A DNA stretch of 48,528 bases from Defluviicoccus sp. (GTDB lineage Bacteria > Pseudomonadota > Alphaproteobacteria > MPNO01), in NCBI GenBank assembly GCA_022823775.1, contig JAJEHI010000083.1, forward strand, positions 1-48,528, given 5' to 3'. A program made the position numbers and the translations under genes. Positions 3-31,108 of the stretch are shown piece after piece. The notes under the pieces are model-generated. The model was not told the origin of the DNA, made no database searches, and saw only the letters and a list, made by a program, of their open reading frames with translations. Each line of letters opens with the position of its first letter. Within the stretch, counting starts at the first letter, position 1.

Positions 3-746
3 GCGCACGGGACTTTCGTGATGAACACGCGCCACGACGTCGTGGTCTGCGGCGTCGACCTCGCGCTCGAGATCATGCGCTTCCAGGAGCCCGGCTGCGA
101 GACCGAAGCGCTGACGCCGGACGGCACACCGGCGGAGGCCGGCGCCACTCTCGCCCGCGTCGAAGGGCCGGCGCGGGGGCTGCTGACGGCGGAACGCACG
201 GCGCTCAACCTGTTCCAGCTCCTGACAGGCATTGCCACGCGGACGGCGGAGTACGCCCGGCTGGTCGAGGGGACGGGGGCGACGCTGATCGACACGCGGA
301 AAACCATCCCCGGCTACCGCGCGCTCTCGAAATACGCTTCCTGCGTAGGCGGGGCGCGTAACCACCGCATCCGTCTCGACGACGGGCTGTTGGTCAAGGA
401 CAACCACATCGCGGTCTGCGGCTCGATCGCCGCCGCGATGGCCAGGGCGCGGGCGCTCACCCCCTCCCTCACTAAGATCGAGATAGAGTGCGACACGCTC
501 CAACAGGTGCGCGAGGCGGCGGACGCGCACGCCGACGTGATCCTCCTCGACAATATGAGCTCGACCATGATGCGCGAGGCGGTCGACATCGTCGACGGGC
601 GCTGCGAGGTCGAGGCGTCCGGCGGGATTACGCTCGAGACCATCCGCGAGAAGGCGGAAAGCGGGGTCGACTACATCTCGGTCGGGCGGATGACCCAGTC
701 GGCGCCCGCCGCCGATATCGGTCTCGACGTCACCATCTCCGCCTGA
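3..746 (+). CDS. nadC: Nicotinate-nucleotide diphosphorylase (carboxylating), 5' partial
   Basis: Quinolinate phosphoribosyltransferase: quinolinate plus PRPP gives nicotinate mononucleotide, CO2 and PPi in de novo NAD synthesis. Seen in the sequence are the family motifs RTALNLFQLLTGIATRT, DTRKTIPGYR, NHRIRLDDGLLVKDNH, the LLDNM strand and the EASGGI phosphate-binding loop. The reading frame is open to the window edge, and the residues before the first in-frame GTG (18) and ATG (21) still fit the family, so the N-terminal 30 to 40 residues lie outside the window. The family is usually about 280 residues and 247 are present. It sits 4 nt before phnN, so the two are probably cotranscribed. That is unusual, since nadC normally accompanies nadA and nadB. 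Family assignment is firm; the true start cannot be seen. Confidence 0.88.
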   Translation, partial: AHGTFVMNTRHDVVVCGVDLALEIMRFQEPGCETEALTPDGTPAEAGATLARVEGPARGLLTAERTALNLFQLLTGIATRTAEYARLVEGTGATLIDTRKTIPGYRALSKYASCVGGARNHRIRLDDGLLVKDNHIAVCGSIAAAMARARALTPSLTKIEIECDTLQQVREAADAHADVILLDNMSSTMMREAVDIVDGRCEVEASGGITLETIREKAESGVDYISVGRMTQSAPAADIGLDVTISA

Positions 747-750
747 GCGC

Positions 751-1305
751 ATGGCGCGCGGTACGCTCTTCCTCGTCGTCGGGCCGAGCGGCGCCGGCAA
801 GGACACGCTGATTGCCGGCGCGCGCGCCGCGCTGGAGCCGGGCGGACGCCACGTCTTTCCGCGCCGCGCGATCACCAGGCCGGCGGCGGCGGGCGGGGAG
901 GGCCACGAAGCGGTCTCGCCCGAGGCGTTCGCCGCGCGCGAGGCCGGGGGCGGGTTCTTCGCGACCTGGAATGCGCACGGGCTCGCCTACGGTCTCCCCG
1001 CGTGCATTTCCGCGGCCCTTGAAGCCGGAAGCCATGTCGTCGTCAACGTCTCGCGGACGATCCTTGCCGATGTAAGTCGACGCGTATCCCCGACGGTGGC
1101 GATCGAGGTCACGGCGCCGCCCGAAATCCGCGCCCGCCGCCTCGCCGACCGCGCGCGCGAGGATGAGGCGGACGCCGCGCGCAGGCTCGTCCGCGAGGGC
1201 GCGCCATTCCCGGACGGCATTCCGGTGCGGCGGGTCGTCAACGACGGGCCGCCGGAGGACGGGATCGCCCGTTTCATCGACGCGCTGGCGGAAACCGATG
1301 CTTAG
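751..1305 (+). CDS. phnN: Ribose 1,5-bisphosphate phosphokinase
   Basis: A 184-residue P-loop kinase that phosphorylates ribose 1,5-bisphosphate to PRPP with ATP. PhnN is best known from phosphonate (C-P lyase) degradation. The Walker A loop GPSGAGKDT (residues 11-19) carries the Asp after the Lys that is typical of PhnN rather than of guanylate kinase. The length also fits PhnN (about 185 to 190). No C-P lyase genes (phnGHIJKLM) are next to it. It lies between nadC, which consumes PRPP, and a TP2 phosphorylase, whose archaeal relatives make ribose 1,5-bisphosphate. The stop overlaps the downstream start by 8 nt, implying translational coupling. A nucleotide-linked rather than phosphonate-linked role is my inference from the neighbours. 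Confidence 0.88.
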   Translation: MARGTLFLVVGPSGAGKDTLIAGARAALEPGGRHVFPRRAITRPAAAGGEGHEAVSPEAFAAREAGGGFFATWNAHGLAYGLPACISAALEAGSHVVVNVSRTILADVSRRVSPTVAIEVTAPPEIRARRLADRAREDEADAARRLVREGAPFPDGIPVRRVVNDGPPEDGIARFIDALAETDA

Positions 1306-2779
1306 ACTGGCCAGGCTCGCCATCGACACCTGGCGGGAGCCGGTCGCCTACCTCCACCGCCGCTGTCCGGAATGCAACGCCGAGAGTTTCCTCGGCCCGC
1401 GTAAGGTCGAGGTGTCGGGCGGCGGGCGGAGCGTCACCTGCGCGCTCAACGTCGTCGACGATGCCGCGCTCGTCGCCCCGGATGCGCTCGCGCTGTCTCC
1501 GCACGCCTTCGACCTGCTCGGTCTCGCGGAGGGGGAGGCTGTCTCGATCCGGCGCGCGCCCGAGCCCGCCAGCCGGCCGGCGCTCAGGGCGAGGATCGCG
1601 GGCCGTCGCTTGAGCGCGGCCGAAATCGACGCGGTGGTCGAGGACATGGTGGCCGGCCGCTACGCCGCGCGCGAGACGGCGGGTTTTCTGGTCGCGGCCG
1701 CGCAGACGCTCGACGACGACGAGGTGATCGCGTTCACCAGGGCGCGCGCCGAGCGCTCCGCGAAAGTCTCCTGGCCGCGGGAGATCGTCGTCGACAAGCA
1801 CTCGATGGGGGGCATCCCCGGGACCCGCGTGACCATGGTGGTTATACCGATCGTCGTCGCGCACGGGCTCACCATCCCCAAGGCCGCCTCGCGCGCGATC
1901 ACCTCGCCCGCCGGCACGGCGGACGCGATGGAGGTGCTGGCCCGGGTCGATCTCGACGCGGGCGAGGTCCGGCGCGCGGTCGACGAGGTCGGCGGCTGCA
2001 TCGTCTGGAACGGAAAGCTCAGCCATTCGCCCATCGACGACGTGATGAATGCCGTCACCCGTCCGCTCGGGATTGTCTCGGACCGGCTCTCGGTGTCCTC
2101 GATCCTGTCCAAGAAGGCGGCGCTCGGCGTGACCCATATCGTGTTCGACATTCCGGTCGGGCCGACCGCCAAGGTGGCCTCCCGGGCCGAGGCGGAGGAA
2201 CTCGCCCGGCTGTTCGTGGTCACGGCGGAAGGGCTCGGCATCGACGTCCGTTGCGAGATCACCGACGGCACCCAGCCTATCGGCCGCGGCGTCGGTCCGG
2301 CGCTGGAAGCGCGCGACGTGATGAAGGTGCTGGCGAACGATGCGGACGCACCCTCCGACCTGCGCGACAAGGCGCTGATGCTCGCCGCCCGGGTGCTCGA
2401 TTTCGACGGCGTCGCCGAACCCCGCGAACGCGCCGAAACCCTGCTCCGGAGCGGCGCGGCGGCGAAGGCGATGGAACGGCTGATAGACGCCCAGGGGCGC
2501 AACCCCGCCCCGCCCGGTCCAGGCGCGCTCACCCGGGAGGTCGCGGCGGCACGCGGCGGCACCGTCGCCTCCATCGATTGCTACCGCATCTCCGGCATCG
2601 CCCGCCGCGCCGGAGCGCCGATGGAAAAATCCGCCGGTCTCGACCTCTTCAAGCAGCGCGGCGACGCGGTGGAGGCGGGCGAACCGCTCTACCGCATCCA
2701 CGCGGCGGAGCAAGCCGACCTCGCCGAGGCGGCGGGCTACGCGGAACGGGACAGCGGGTTCGAGATCGCGGCGGGGTGA
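1298..2779 (+). CDS. TP2-type thymidine phosphorylase / AMP phosphorylase family protein
   Basis: A 493-residue nucleoside-phosphorylase class II protein of the long type, which has an N-terminal domain of about 85 residues before the catalytic part. Archaeal members are AMP phosphorylases (NMP plus phosphate gives base plus ribose 1,5-bisphosphate); bacterial members are usually annotated as putative thymidine phosphorylases. Visible motifs are DKHSMGGIPG (166-175), ITSPAGTADAMEVL (about 201-214) with the SPAGTAD loop in place of the glycine-rich DeoA loop, and LSHSPIDDVMNAVTRPLG (241-258). The ATG at 1298 is chosen because the protein then begins at the family N terminus. It overlaps phnN by 8 nt. 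The frame stays open upstream to 1163, but that part is the shadow of phnN. Whether it acts on nucleosides or nucleotides cannot be decided from the motifs; the phnN coupling favours nucleotides. Confidence 0.82.
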   Translation: MLRLARLAIDTWREPVAYLHRRCPECNAESFLGPRKVEVSGGGRSVTCALNVVDDAALVAPDALALSPHAFDLLGLAEGEAVSIRRAPEPASRPALRARIAGRRLSAAEIDAVVEDMVAGRYAARETAGFLVAAAQTLDDDEVIAFTRARAERSAKVSWPREIVVDKHSMGGIPGTRVTMVVIPIVVAHGLTIPKAASRAITSPAGTADAMEVLARVDLDAGEVRRAVDEVGGCIVWNGKLSHSPIDDVMNAVTRPLGIVSDRLSVSSILSKKAALGVTHIVFDIPVGPTAKVASRAEAEELARLFVVTAEGLGIDVRCEITDGTQPIGRGVGPALEARDVMKVLANDADAPSDLRDKALMLAARVLDFDGVAEPRERAETLLRSGAAAKAMERLIDAQGRNPAPPGPGALTREVAAARGGTVASIDCYRISGIARRAGAPMEKSAGLDLFKQRGDAVEAGEPLYRIHAAEQADLAEAAGYAERDSGFEIAAG

Positions 2780-2855: not shown

Positions 2856-4373
2856 ATGGCCGAGACTGCGCGCGACGCGGTAACCGAAGCGCCCGCCAGG
2901 GCGGGCGGCAATCTGCGGGCGGTACTGCCCTACGCCGATCTGCGCGAGTGGCTGGCGGAGGCGGAAAAGCTCGGCGAGGTTACCGTCGCCAAGGGTCTCG
3001 GCAAGGACGAGGAGATCGGCCAGGCGGCCGAGCTCGTCATGCACTCCGACGAGGCCAACTGCGTCGTCTTCGACGAGATCCCGGGCCATGAGCCGGGCTA
3101 CCGCGTGCTGGTCAATTTCTTCGGCGGCAAGCGCAAGAACATGACGCTCGGTTTCCCGACCGATCTCTCCAAGATCGAGCTCAGCGAGGCCTATTACGAC
3201 GCGCAGCTGAAGGATCTGGAGCCGATCCCGCATGTGACGGTGGACGGCGGGCCGGTGACGGAGAACGTCCTCGAAGGCGACGACGTGGACCTGAGCAGGT
3301 TCCCCGCGCCGTTCTGGCATCCCGACGACGGCGGCCACTATATCGGCACGGGCAGTTTCGACGTCACCGTCGATCCCGACACCGGCTGGATGAATCTCGG
3401 CACCTACCGGGTGATGGTGCAGGACGAGAAGACCGTCGGCTATTACATCTCCCCCGGCAAGCACGGCCGGGTGCACCGCGACAAGTACCTCGCGCGCGGC
3501 GAGCCGATGCCGACGGCGATCGTTGTCGGCGGCGATCCGATGACATTCCTCACAGCTTGCACCGAGATGCCGCCCGGGGTCTGCGAGTACGACATCGTCG
3601 GCGCCATGCGGGGCGAGCCGCTGAGGGTGATAAAGGGGCGCCACACCGGCATCCCGTTCCCCGCCGACGCCGAGATCGTGCTCGAAGGTTTCGTCGACCC
3701 CGAGGAACGCCGCCCCGAGGGGCCGTTCGGCGAATGGACCGGCTATTACGGGTCCGACATGCGCGACGAGCCGGTGATGCACGTGAAGGCGGTCTATCAC
3801 CGCAACAACCCGATCATCCTCGGCTGCCCGCCGCAGCGCCCGCCCGACGAGATGTGCCGCTACCGCGCGGTCACCCGCTCGGCGATGCTGCGCGACGCGA
3901 TCGAGAAGGCCGGCGTCCCCGACGTGCGCGCCGCCTGGGCGCATGAGGTCGGCAACAGCCGGATGCTGCTCGCCGTCGCCATCAAGCAGCGCTATCCCGG
4001 CCACGCCAAGCAGGCCGGCCATGTCGCCGCGATGTGCCATGTCGGCGCCTATGCCGGGAAATACGTCGTCGTCACCGACGAGGACGTCGACATCTCCAAT
4101 CTTGAGGAGATGACCTGGGCGATGATTACCCGGTCCGACCCGGCGACCTCGATCGACATCATCAAGGACGCCTGGTCGACTCCGCTCGATCCGCGCATCC
4201 CGCTCGAGGAAAAGGCCAGGGGCAACATGACCAACAGCCGCGCGATCGTCGATGCCTGCCGGCCGTTCCACTGGAAGGACAACTTCCCGCCGGTGAACGC
4301 GCCGACCCAGGAGGTCGCGCGCAAGGCGCGGGAGAAGTTCGGCTACCTGCTTGAGGGCCGGGACGCGCCTTAG
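2856..4373 (+). CDS. UbiD family decarboxylase
   Basis: A 505-residue UbiD-type (de)carboxylase, expected to use prenylated FMN made by a UbiX partner to add or remove CO2 on aromatic or alpha,beta-unsaturated acids. The conserved catalytic trio is visible: Arg185 in NLGTYR (180-185), and Glu288 and Glu293 in PEGPFGEWTGYYG, with the same spacing as Arg173/Glu277/Glu282 of fungal Fdc1. Asn180 is the expected metal/cofactor ligand. The ATG at 2856 has a GAGGAG ribosome site 6 nt upstream. The N-terminal 20 or so residues are extra compared with the second UbiD in this window (29684-31108). The gene follows the phosphorylase by 76 nt and may share its transcript, although no functional link is obvious. 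No ubiX is in the window. The substrate is unknown. Confidence 0.88.
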   Translation: MAETARDAVTEAPARAGGNLRAVLPYADLREWLAEAEKLGEVTVAKGLGKDEEIGQAAELVMHSDEANCVVFDEIPGHEPGYRVLVNFFGGKRKNMTLGFPTDLSKIELSEAYYDAQLKDLEPIPHVTVDGGPVTENVLEGDDVDLSRFPAPFWHPDDGGHYIGTGSFDVTVDPDTGWMNLGTYRVMVQDEKTVGYYISPGKHGRVHRDKYLARGEPMPTAIVVGGDPMTFLTACTEMPPGVCEYDIVGAMRGEPLRVIKGRHTGIPFPADAEIVLEGFVDPEERRPEGPFGEWTGYYGSDMRDEPVMHVKAVYHRNNPIILGCPPQRPPDEMCRYRAVTRSAMLRDAIEKAGVPDVRAAWAHEVGNSRMLLAVAIKQRYPGHAKQAGHVAAMCHVGAYAGKYVVVTDEDVDISNLEEMTWAMITRSDPATSIDIIKDAWSTPLDPRIPLEEKARGNMTNSRAIVDACRPFHWKDNFPPVNAPTQEVARKAREKFGYLLEGRDAP

Positions 4374-10017: not shown

Positions 10018-11718
10018 TCAATGCGTGTCGAACACAGCCTGGTATCGGGCGAGCGCGTCCCGGATCGCGGCGAGCTCCGCATCGGTCGGGTTGTCCGGAT
10101 CGGCGGCCGGGGGCAGCGACCCGAAGCGCAGCAGGCAGGCCATCAGCAGGAGCCGCGCCTTGGTCGCCGTCAGGTTGGCGCCCGAGATCTGGTAGTCGCT
10201 GTAATCCGCGAAACCCTGGGTGTGGCCGCGCCCCACCCGCGCGACGGGGATGCCGCAAGCCGTCGCCCGCAAGAGCACCGAATGGCGCGCCGCCGAGGTG
10301 TTGAGCCCGTACGGCACCAGCCCCTCGACCACGAAGCCCGCGAGGCGTCCGAGCGACAGCTTGTGCTCGACCGAAGCGGCGAGGTCCTGCTCCAGCGCCG
10401 GGTCGTCGCCGATCTCGAGCCCGGCATAGCAGCCGTTCTTCTCGATCGACACTACCGGGATCGCGTGCGCCAGAAGGTTGCCGTCCGCGTCCTTGACCGC
10501 GATGTCGAAGCGCTCGATCCCGCCATCCGCCCGCGCCCGGACGGCGGTGGTCTCGGCGGGCAGGCGGCTCAAATTCACCTCCGAACCGGACGTATGCCTG
10601 TAGACCGGCAGGTAGGTGAGCATGAAGCGGCCGGTATAGTGGACCTGGCCGATGATTCCGCCATGCCCGCCGGTCGCCACGTAGCCGCCCGGCCGGGCGT
10701 CGACCTTTGCGACCTCGCGGGCGGCGAATATCTGCTGTTCCTGGATGACGACGGCGCCGCAGCGGTCGCGCCCGTCGGCGTCGGCCCAGATGCCGGACGC
10801 GATATAGCGCACGCAATCGACGATGTTGGCCGGCCCGTCATTGCTGATCTGACCCTGCGGGCGCTGGGCGGCGACGCCGCAGATCGGCTTGTCGGTGTCG
10901 ATCAGGAGGTTGAACCAGTAGGCGCTGTCCTCCACGTCGGGGCTGCCCTGGGTCCAGATGACCCCGTCATAGGCGTCGTCGGCGACCAGCGCCTGCATGT
11001 CGTTGGTCGCCTTGGCGAGCGTCGGCCGGGGCGGCGGCGCGGTCAGGTGATAGGGCTTGTAGGGAAAGAAATCCGCGCCCCGCCGTTCCTCCGGGATGTC
11101 GCCGTCGCCGATGTCCGGCCGTTCTGCCTCCGCGAGGCCGCTTCTGTATCCGCCGGGCGGGACGCCCCGGTAGAAATCGACGTCGGCGAGCGCCGAGATG
11201 GCGCTTGCGATGCCGTAATCGTCGACCATGAGCCGGTCGATCTCCTCGAAGCTGCGCGACCCGTCCGGGTAAAATCCCTGGCGCGCCTCCTCGTCCGGCG
11301 CGCCGGGCGTCGCGCATTCCTCCTCCCAGGCCCGGCCGTCCGCCTGGCGCGCCATGTAAGGCAGGGGGTAGAGCCCGTCCTCGGGCAGCATCTCGATCTC
11401 GTACACCGGTTTGTCTTCCGGCGAGGTGCGTTCGGCGCTGAACGCGCCGTCGGCGCCGATATAGCCGTCCGGCGGGGCGTAGAGCGCCGCCGCGTCCGCC
11501 TCCAGGGGATGCGCCGAGAACTGCTCGACATAGACTTTCGCCGGGGCGGCGAGACGCTGCCCGCGAAGCGCGTCGTAGGGCAGGGCGGTTCCGTCCGCCC
11601 CGTTCAGCAGCGGCAGCCCGTGTTTCCGGCGAGCCTTGTTCGAGGTCACCAGCGGCGGGGTGTTCTGGATCGTCGCCGTCGGTCCCGCCAGATGTGCAAT
11701 TCGCACTTTACCGGTCAT
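10018..11718 (-). CDS. Large asparaginase-fold domain protein
   Basis: A 566-residue protein related to L-asparaginase/GatD. The N terminus has TATIQNTPPLVTSNKARRK. The second substrate-binding region appears only near residue 255 as WTQGSPDVEDSAYW (the VTHGTDTMEET region of asparaginase), followed by SNDGPANIVD (292-301). Canonical type I/II asparaginases are about 330 residues with the two regions some 70 residues apart, so about 150 residues are inserted here. The catalytic GTDT motif is GSPD (258-261), so Thr89-Asp90 of the E. coli enzyme are not conserved as such. There is no signal peptide, so it is cytoplasmic. It diverges from the amide ABC transporter, which suggests a role in amide nitrogen use. 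Amidase activity is inferred, not shown. Confidence 0.68.
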   Translation of the reverse strand: MTGKVRIAHLAGPTATIQNTPPLVTSNKARRKHGLPLLNGADGTALPYDALRGQRLAAPAKVYVEQFSAHPLEADAAALYAPPDGYIGADGAFSAERTSPEDKPVYEIEMLPEDGLYPLPYMARQADGRAWEEECATPGAPDEEARQGFYPDGSRSFEEIDRLMVDDYGIASAISALADVDFYRGVPPGGYRSGLAEAERPDIGDGDIPEERRGADFFPYKPYHLTAPPPRPTLAKATNDMQALVADDAYDGVIWTQGSPDVEDSAYWFNLLIDTDKPICGVAAQRPQGQISNDGPANIVDCVRYIASGIWADADGRDRCGAVVIQEQQIFAAREVAKVDARPGGYVATGGHGGIIGQVHYTGRFMLTYLPVYRHTSGSEVNLSRLPAETTAVRARADGGIERFDIAVKDADGNLLAHAIPVVSIEKNGCYAGLEIGDDPALEQDLAASVEHKLSLGRLAGFVVEGLVPYGLNTSAARHSVLLRATACGIPVARVGRGHTQGFADYSDYQISGANLTATKARLLLMACLLRFGSLPPAADPDNPTDAELAAIRDALARYQAVFDTH

Positions 11719-29683: not shown

Positions 29684-31108
29684 CTACGGCAGCATGTCGG
29701 CGTATTTTGACCGGATGCGGTCGTCGAACTCCTTGGAGGAGCGGGCGACGATGGGGAAGCTGTCGCGGCGGTTGAACGGGATGCACGCATCGACCACCAC
29801 GCGCGCGCTGCGCCGGTCGGTATCGCCGTCATAGCACATCGGGTCGAGATGGCTGCTCCAGCCGCCGCGGACGGTCTCCATGTCCTCGCGCGGGTCGAAC
29901 CGGGTGCACATCGCCCACACCACGTCGTCCATGTTCGTCGGGTCGATATCGTCGTCGACCACCACCACCCAGCGGTTGCAGTAGGCGCCGGCATGGCAGG
30001 ACGCCGCGATCATTCCCGCTTGCTTGGAATGGCCGCCATACATCTGCTTGATCGAGACGGTGAGCCACATCCGGCTGCCGCCGGCCTCGTGCGCCCAGAC
30101 GCCCCTGACCTCCGGGACGCCGGCGGCCTCGAGCTGGTTCCACACCGCGCCGCAGCGATAGGTGCCGAGATAGAACGTGTTGTCGTTGGGCGGCACCGCC
30201 GGGATCGCGCCGGTCAGCACCGGGTTGTCGCGGTGCATGAAGGTCTCGATGCGGATCGCAGGCTCCTCGCGCTGGCCGCCGGCGTAGTAGCCGGTCCATT
30301 CGCCCAGCGGACCCTCCAGCACCTTGTCGCCGGCATGGATGAAGCCCTCGAAGGCGATCTCGGCGCCGGCCGGCACCGGCAGTCCCGTCTTCGGCATGTT
30401 GATGACCTCGATGGGCTCCCGCATCAGCCCGCCGACGGCGTCGAACTCGTTCTTGCCATAGGGGATCTCCAGCCCGGCGATCATGAAGAAGGCGGGATGC
30501 ATGCCGGCAACCACCGCGACGGGGCAGGCTTCGCCGCGCTGGTGGTACTTCTCCATGATCAGCCGGCCGTGCTTGCCGGGCGACATCATCACCGTCGCGA
30601 CCGCCGGCTCGTGCGACTGAACGCGGTAGCAGCCGAAATTGATCCAGCCGGTGTCCGGGTCCTTCATCACCACCATGCAGCCGGTGCCGATGAAATGCCC
30701 GCCGTCGTGCTCGTGCCACTTGGGCGTCGGGATGGTGGTGATGTCGACCGCCGCGCCCTCGCTGACATTGTCGAGCAGCGGGCCGCCATTGACCTCGCGC
30801 GGCGCGTGGGTCGGCGCGTCGCCCATATAGTCGCGCCACCAGCGGATCAGGTCCATCTCGGAGGCTTCCGGGTCGAGGCCCAGCGCGACGTTTATGCGCG
30901 GCACCGAGGTCAGGATGTTCGCGATAACCCGGTGGCCCTTGGGGAAGCCCGGAACCTCGTCGAACATCACCGCCGGGTTTCCCATCTTGCGCTGGAAGAT
31001 GTCGACGAGACCGCCGATTTCCTCGTGATGTTCCACGCCCGTGAGGGTCTGGAGCTCGCCGATGCGCTCGACGCCCTCCAGCCAGTTCCGCAAGTCCTTG
31101 TTCGCCAC
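29684..31108 (-). CDS. UbiD family decarboxylase
   Basis: A 474-residue prenyl-FMN-dependent (de)carboxylase family protein. Catalytic residues are in place: Asn157 and Arg162 in NFGCYR, Glu265 and Glu270 in LEGPLGEWTGYY, with the same 103-residue spacing as in the other UbiD of this window. The start is GTG at 31108, supported by AAGGAG 7 nt upstream. It is shorter at the N terminus than its paralogue and clearly diverged from it, suggesting a different substrate. It lies 48 nt after copA and 61 nt before the leaderless NMT1-like gene. No ubiX is seen. Confidence 0.88.
   Translation of the reverse strand: MANKDLRNWLEGVERIGELQTLTGVEHHEEIGGLVDIFQRKMGNPAVMFDEVPGFPKGHRVIANILTSVPRINVALGLDPEASEMDLIRWWRDYMGDAPTHAPREVNGGPLLDNVSEGAAVDITTIPTPKWHEHDGGHFIGTGCMVVMKDPDTGWINFGCYRVQSHEPAVATVMMSPGKHGRLIMEKYHQRGEACPVAVVAGMHPAFFMIAGLEIPYGKNEFDAVGGLMREPIEVINMPKTGLPVPAGAEIAFEGFIHAGDKVLEGPLGEWTGYYAGGQREEPAIRIETFMHRDNPVLTGAIPAVPPNDNTFYLGTYRCGAVWNQLEAAGVPEVRGVWAHEAGGSRMWLTVSIKQMYGGHSKQAGMIAASCHAGAYCNRWVVVVDDDIDPTNMDDVVWAMCTRFDPREDMETVRGGWSSHLDPMCYDGDTDRRSARVVVDACIPFNRRDSFPIVARSSKEFDDRIRSKYADMLP

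Follow-up and report, generated by a model that had tools for sequence, protein, structure and literature searches.

Adjacent genes for quinolinate phosphoribosyltransferase (NadC) and the ribose 1,5-bisphosphokinase PhnN, which forms phosphoribosyl pyrophosphate (PRPP), are part of a quinolinate salvage system of Bordetella, Variovorax and Jezberella, where they occur with the quinolinate-type binding proteins Bug27 and Bug69 and where a role in uptake for the synthesis of nicotinamide adenine dinucleotide (NAD) has been proposed (PMC11452294). Ribose 1,5-bisphosphate, the substrate of PhnN, is the product of the archaeal nucleoside monophosphate (NMP, or AMP) phosphorylase TK0352 of T. kodakarensis (PMC9700705; PDB 4ga4-4ga6), and the named clusters for aerobic nicotinate degradation that we have examined (NicAB/NicC; NicAB/6-hydroxynicotinate reductase) begin at nicotinate and contain no annotated nadC or phnN. 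Here, we have analyzed a 48,528-nucleotide stretch of DNA from Defluviicoccus sp. (contig JAJEHI010000083.1 of assembly GCA_022823775.1), termed the window, which is contig C16 of its own genome (G000) starting at base 1, and which carries on its forward strand nadC (3..746), phnN (751..1305) and a gene for a TP2-type phosphorylase (TP2, 1298..2779). We consider it probable that these three genes constitute a closed PRPP cycle, which decarboxylates quinolinate to nicotinate and in which TP2 is a proposed nicotinate mononucleotide (NaMN) phosphorylase.

In the proposed cycle, NadC would convert quinolinate and PRPP into NaMN, CO2 and pyrophosphate (PPi), TP2 would cleave NaMN with phosphate (Pi) into nicotinate and ribose 1,5-bisphosphate, and PhnN would regenerate PRPP from the latter at the expense of ATP, releasing ADP. 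The net reaction would thus be quinolinate + ATP + Pi -> nicotinate + CO2 + ADP + PPi, with PRPP acting as recycled carrier and NaMN also being available for draw-off to NAD. In contrast to AMP, a pyridinium glycoside is favoured thermodynamically as a target of phosphorolysis. The observed basis of the cycle consists of the gene unit itself, the fusion of PhnN to TP2 in other organisms, a linkage to nadC that is specific to one TP2 clade, changed residues in the base site and the linkage to nicotinate catabolism and transporter genes in several lineages. The cycle is the simplest scheme that accommodates all of these observations. It would explain why precisely NadC, TP2 and PhnN are retained as a set and why PhnN and TP2 occur fused, and it would similarly account for the retention of a second nadC in genomes containing nadABC and for the nicotinate degradation genes found nearby.

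The assignment of the three proteins is supported by family models. NadC exceeds the cut-off of TIGR00078 (270.7 versus 198.4 bits) despite the loss of its 5' end, with the first approximately 46 residues missing because the window begins at the first base of the contig; full-length NadC proteins in relatives comprise 291-293 residues. It is followed after a gap of 4 nt by phnN, whose product of 184 residues scores 172.9 bits against TIGR02322 (cut-off 156) and contains a P-loop (GPSGAGKD, residues 11-18, 781..804 on the forward strand), which is kept in the fusions. The start of TP2 overlaps with the end of phnN by 8 nt (1298..1305, forward strand), and its product of 493 residues matches, over the full length, both PRK04350 (600 versus a cut-off of 434 bits) and TIGR02645 (518 versus 434.6 bits), whereas it stays below the cut-offs for classical thymidine and pyrimidine-nucleoside phosphorylases (TIGR02643, 124.6 versus 570.7 bits; TIGR02644, 175.6 versus 409.05 bits). 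The tight coupling described in the initial annotation is thus borne out by the reading frames, and the gene order, the 4-nt gap and the 8-nt overlap are identical in five Defluviicoccus loci (L051-L055). Differences from relatives are concentrated in third codon positions, as illustrated by the comparison of TP2 with its counterpart in L052 (35, 32 and 116 differences at positions 1, 2 and 3), and the frames are therefore under protein-level constraint. A second start of nadC-phnN, which is 91% identical and stops at a contig edge, was found at the end of contig C87 of the same genome (L177) and probably reflects a strain mixture in the metagenome-assembled genome (MAG).

For comparison, we have combined a family search over relatives with a scan of genome contigs, two broad surveys, an order-wide survey and a plasmid search. 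In 16 further loci identified in this way, PhnN and TP2 form a single open frame of about 590-720 residues, with nadC located directly upstream on the same strand in each case (16/16) at a distance of 3-27 nt in the eleven loci where the gap was measured. The initial annotation had considered that the trio might be found adjacent only here; instead, it is present in 21 loci, and these together with the fusions reject a chance adjacency of the three genes. That a single protein carries both enzymes in 16 loci indicates that the PhnN and TP2 reactions, which meet at ribose 1,5-bisphosphate, form a pair. The fusions stem from a number of alpha- and betaproteobacterial families and, as judged by kinship, from other proteobacteria, including gammaproteobacteria; three are plasmid-borne (Variovorax sp. 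SRS16, Pacificitalea manganoxidans and Paraburkholderia sp. 22B1P), and they are rare, with three found in 386 genomes of the class and four in 397 genomes of the phylum in even draws. The N-terminal domain of TP2 is present in some fusions and gone from others. Both annotated plasmid fusions are labelled only as 'PhnN' in RefSeq. This concerns also the described salvage system (PMC11452294): the Variovorax sp. SRS16 plasmid locus (L212) contains nadC, 'phnN' and TctC in this order, and its 'phnN' is in fact a PhnN-TP2 fusion, while a phosphorylase is not mentioned in that paper. The likeness to this system, consisting of nadC beside phnN and a quinolinate-type binding protein, is accompanied by a difference in the proposed role, which in our case is a PRPP cycle instead of uptake for NAD.

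In a tree of the catalytic parts of TP2, the 16 fused and five split phosphorylases form one clade (SH-aLRT 99) on a long stem. All 21 loci of this clade have nadC adjacent to TP2, against 0 of 89 TP2 loci outside it (Fisher p 5e-23, where this and other Fisher values overstate independence, as the loci share ancestry). The PRPP synthase gene (prs) directly follows TP2 in 20 of the 89 other loci, and such pairs, often with a 4-nt overlap, constitute a second recurrent link of TP2 to PRPP formation (L033, L034, L056-L059, L061, L063, L094, L188-L196 and L214). These proteobacterial pairs resemble the system described here in the coupling of an enzyme of the same family to a PRPP-forming enzyme and differ in that their TP2 comes from other branches, in which the base site is hydrophobic, that the partner is Prs and that nadC is absent. 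As separate observations, a further TP2 group, which includes many of the loci L066-L127 (mostly from gut-type alphaproteobacterial MAGs), often adjoins dnaK/dnaJ and mostly contains an Ile in place of the base-binding Lys of thymidine phosphorylase, and in L186 a stand-alone phnN (10177-10764) is divergent from a TP2 gene and is not accompanied by nadC.

The NadC proteins of the module likewise cluster together (support 93), in a tree where the outgroup branches are long. In the genomes G365 and G591, which have a nadA-linked nadC in addition to the module copy, the module NadC shares 78-79% identity with module NadCs of other organisms, but only 41-49% with the nadA-linked copy of the same genome. 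The nadC-phnN-TP2 set appears to have been inherited together. NadA was not found in the genome of the window, as is the case in 67 of 97 relatives, and in light of this lack of enrichment its absence was rejected as a marker of the module and is not counted as evidence. An upstream nadA-nadB pair feeding the module NadC was equally dismissed, since the examined genes upstream of nadC are mostly transporters and in no case nadA or nadB. The genome contains 3-hydroxyanthranilate dioxygenase (HaaO), and in this lineage quinolinate is probably obtained from 3-hydroxyanthranilate via this enzyme.

The structural relationship of TP2 bears on the reaction that it catalyzes. Its AlphaFold model (pLDDT 94.3) shows the best fold match to the T. 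kodakarensis AMP phosphorylase (4ga4, Z 55.1; 37-40% identity), including its N-terminal domain (4ga5, Z 48.0 over 484 residues), followed by pyrimidine phosphorylases (Z 42-45) and TrpD (approximately 28), and the catalytic residues H168, S268 and K272 are retained. The initial annotation had assigned TP2 as an AMP phosphorylase within a possible salvage module, where it would phosphorolyse AMP, CMP or UMP to ribose 1,5-bisphosphate, which PhnN would convert to PRPP for the NadC-catalyzed synthesis of NaMN from quinolinate and finally of NAD. Such a linear supply of PRPP draws on the fact that the closest characterized enzyme performs the first step and that E. coli is known to form PRPP by way of PhnN (PMC9700705), and a link of nadC and phnN with quinolinate uptake has already been proposed (PMC11452294). 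However, TP2 misses the cut-off of the archaeal AMP phosphorylase equivalog (TIGR03327, AMP_phos; 413.6 versus 535 bits), and its base-site residues depart from those of NMP phosphorylase exactly in the module clade.

These departures concern 9 of 421 alignment columns that separate the module clade from Prs-linked TP2, three of which are among the ten active-site columns mapped from thymidine phosphorylase (PMC2719695; hypergeometric p 8e-4). In two of them, located in the base pocket, N251 (2048..2050, column of human Tyr199 and E. coli Tyr168) replaces an Ile of the Prs-linked clade (21/21 versus 20/20) and S265 (2090..2092, column of human Ile214 and E. coli Ile183) a Met (18/21 versus 18/20), whereas the third column (Ser117 column, E. 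coli S86) contains Ser169 in module TP2 and a Cys in the Prs clade. Further replacements, all complete in both groups (21/21 versus 20/20), are found at R150 (1745..1747, Met in the Prs-linked clade), N238 (2009..2011, Gly) and H243 (2024..2026, Leu; codons all on the forward strand). Moreover, a Glu that is invariant outside of the clade (20/20 Prs-linked, 68/68 others and T. kodakarensis) is substituted by Thr, Val or Asn within it. Only in the module clade have sites with hydrophobic residues in Prs-linked TP2 and archaeal AMP phosphorylase thus become polar, among them the two in the base pocket, and a pocket that would in this way have turned polar and more positive suits an anionic, carboxylated pyridine base. 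The assignment as AMP phosphorylase is weakened by the re-made pocket and the missed cut-off. Each of the 16 module genomes tested also encodes a normal Prs, and extra supply of PRPP is thus not obviously needed. A linear route would also cost one nucleotide for each nucleotide produced and leave the nicotinate catabolism genes described below unexplained. Of the earlier proposal, the functional unit around ribose 1,5-bisphosphate, PRPP and NadC has therefore been retained, whereas the direction from nucleotide via PRPP to NaMN has lost ground to the pocket, the ubiquity of Prs and the nicotinate genes, and we regard this route as unlikely, if still deserving consideration.

The fate of ribose 1,5-bisphosphate provides another distinction from the pathway of TK0352, as it would in the module proceed via PhnN to PRPP and not to ribulose 1,5-bisphosphate: a ribose 1,5-bisphosphate (R15P) isomerase scoring above the cut-off of TIGR00511 was found in none of the 16 module genomes, and this fate was hence rejected. 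Phosphorylases are reversible, and archaea have been described to convert nucleosides to NMP via ribose 1,5-bisphosphate (PMC9700705), so TP2 could instead use ribose 1,5-bisphosphate as acceptor of a base, such as nicotinate in the formation of NaMN, with PhnN draining the surplus. The module showed no gene for the production of ribose 1,5-bisphosphate, though, and PhnN consumes this compound. The breakage of pyridinium glycosides is energetically favoured, and such an anabolic direction strikes us as very improbable.

PhnN of the module shares its enzyme family and expected reaction with the enzyme of the C-P lyase pathway. The initial annotation had noted the lack of C-P lyase genes, a claim that could cover the window only, and had found a classical phosphonate role of PhnN unsupported; a whole-genome search extends this result, as PhnJ, the core component of C-P lyase, was found neither in the genome of the window nor in its genus. 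PhnJ is encoded elsewhere in the genome in 6 of 16 module genomes, four of which contain a second, separate PhnN on the same contig at a distance of 2-8 kb from phnJ, in G591 within a full phn operon. In the genome of the window, a second phnN in a C-P lyase operon was considered and rejected, the match on C87 being the strain copy of the same nadC-phnN locus. The three genes form a functional unit around ribose 1,5-bisphosphate, PRPP and quinolinate phosphoribosyltransferase that is apparently unrelated to phosphonate use.

A link to nicotinate was found in the surroundings of the module by searching all TP2 loci with query genes from the named nicotinate-degradation clusters. Four of the 21 module loci have nicotinate catabolism genes beside or near the module, compared with no case among the 89 remaining TP2 loci (3/21 versus 0/89, p 0.006, if only primary windows are considered). 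In G701, nadC is divergent from the gene of a 6-hydroxynicotinate reductase, after which come UPF0280, a pair of AA_synth genes and NicB/NicA, and the same set is found about 5 kb from nadC in G1028. In G636, NicT- and NicC-like genes are located directly upstream of nadC with NicA/NicB nearby, and in L103 this position is occupied by the C-terminal part of NicB. Together with the clade-specific base pocket, these four loci favour the release of nicotinate from NaMN by TP2. Transporter genes adjoin many modules (TRAP-TAXI, TctC and MFS), and quinolinate is a ligand of TctC proteins of the Bug27/69 type (PMC11452294). Paired AA_synth (PF06684) genes and UPF0280 beside 6-hydroxynicotinate reductase were observed at L180:14624-15789, L229:7879-9134 and L234:5233-6497 and are probably uncharacterized steps of this route of nicotinate degradation.

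Several points weigh against the cycle. We infer every enzyme activity of these proteins, above all the use of NaMN as substrate of TP2, and the argument on the base pocket is drawn from a sequence alignment. Nicotinate catabolism genes were found neither in the window nor in the Defluviicoccus loci or the f3 family, with only four of 21 loci showing such a link and the genes of G1028 appearing only in an extended window. Where the link is missing, the product could be channelled into NAD or used elsewhere. Finally, the cycle does not explain neighbours that are possibly related to NAD. An FRG-domain protein homologous to the defence candidate PDC-S15 is encoded near the module in six of 21 loci (L103, L206, L212, L215, L181 and L182), with no counterpart at the 89 other TP2 loci, and a gene for a SIR2_2-like protein of about 400 residues directly follows the PhnN-TP2 fusion in two distant lineages (L183:7478-8683, overlapping with the fusion gene, and L041:7322-8524; 43% identity). 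These neighbours would fit a role in NAD turnover, where NAD would be broken down, possibly with the help of the FRG or SIR2-like proteins, and TP2 would split the resulting NMN (nicotinamide mononucleotide) or NaMN. The ribose would then be salvaged as PRPP through PhnN, and NadC would use quinolinate to restore NaMN, for instance after NAD-depleting stress. A possible NADase function has been proposed for Frg domains (PMC9503650). Yet this activity is only putative for both protein types, the opposite strand often carries the FRG genes and most module loci, including the window, contain neither gene, which makes this role rather improbable.

With respect to previous work, the link between nadC, phnN and quinolinate is already published (PMC11452294), whereas we came across no description of the phosphorylase component or the cycle, and the exact phrase for a NaMN phosphorylase was not found among the matches listed in a literature search. 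We lean, if only slightly, towards an undescribed pathway in which PRPP serves as catalytic carrier and where the decarboxylation of quinolinate to nicotinate, at the cost of one ATP, is shared between NadC, PhnN and a new phosphorylase specific for NaMN, thereby opening nicotinate degradation routes to quinolinate, with the PhnN-phosphorylase fusion as a single enzyme that removes nicotinate from NaMN and remakes PRPP. If true, bacterial PhnN and ribose 1,5-bisphosphate would gain a physiological role outside of phosphonate metabolism and a function would be assigned to an uncharacterized phosphorylase clade that is hidden in reference annotation under the labels 'PhnN' or 'thymidine phosphorylase'. 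It would also define a new route for the breakdown of quinolinate, a neurotoxic product of tryptophan and precursor of NAD, and the use of PRPP as recycled carrier and not as consumed building block would be unusual.

The remainder of the window contains UbiD, Rieske oxygenase, TRAP and amidase genes, and the region around the module reads as a catabolic island. Two genes in the window encode UbiD-family decarboxylases (2856-4373 and 29684-31108), the first of which is kept directly after the module in Defluviicoccus.

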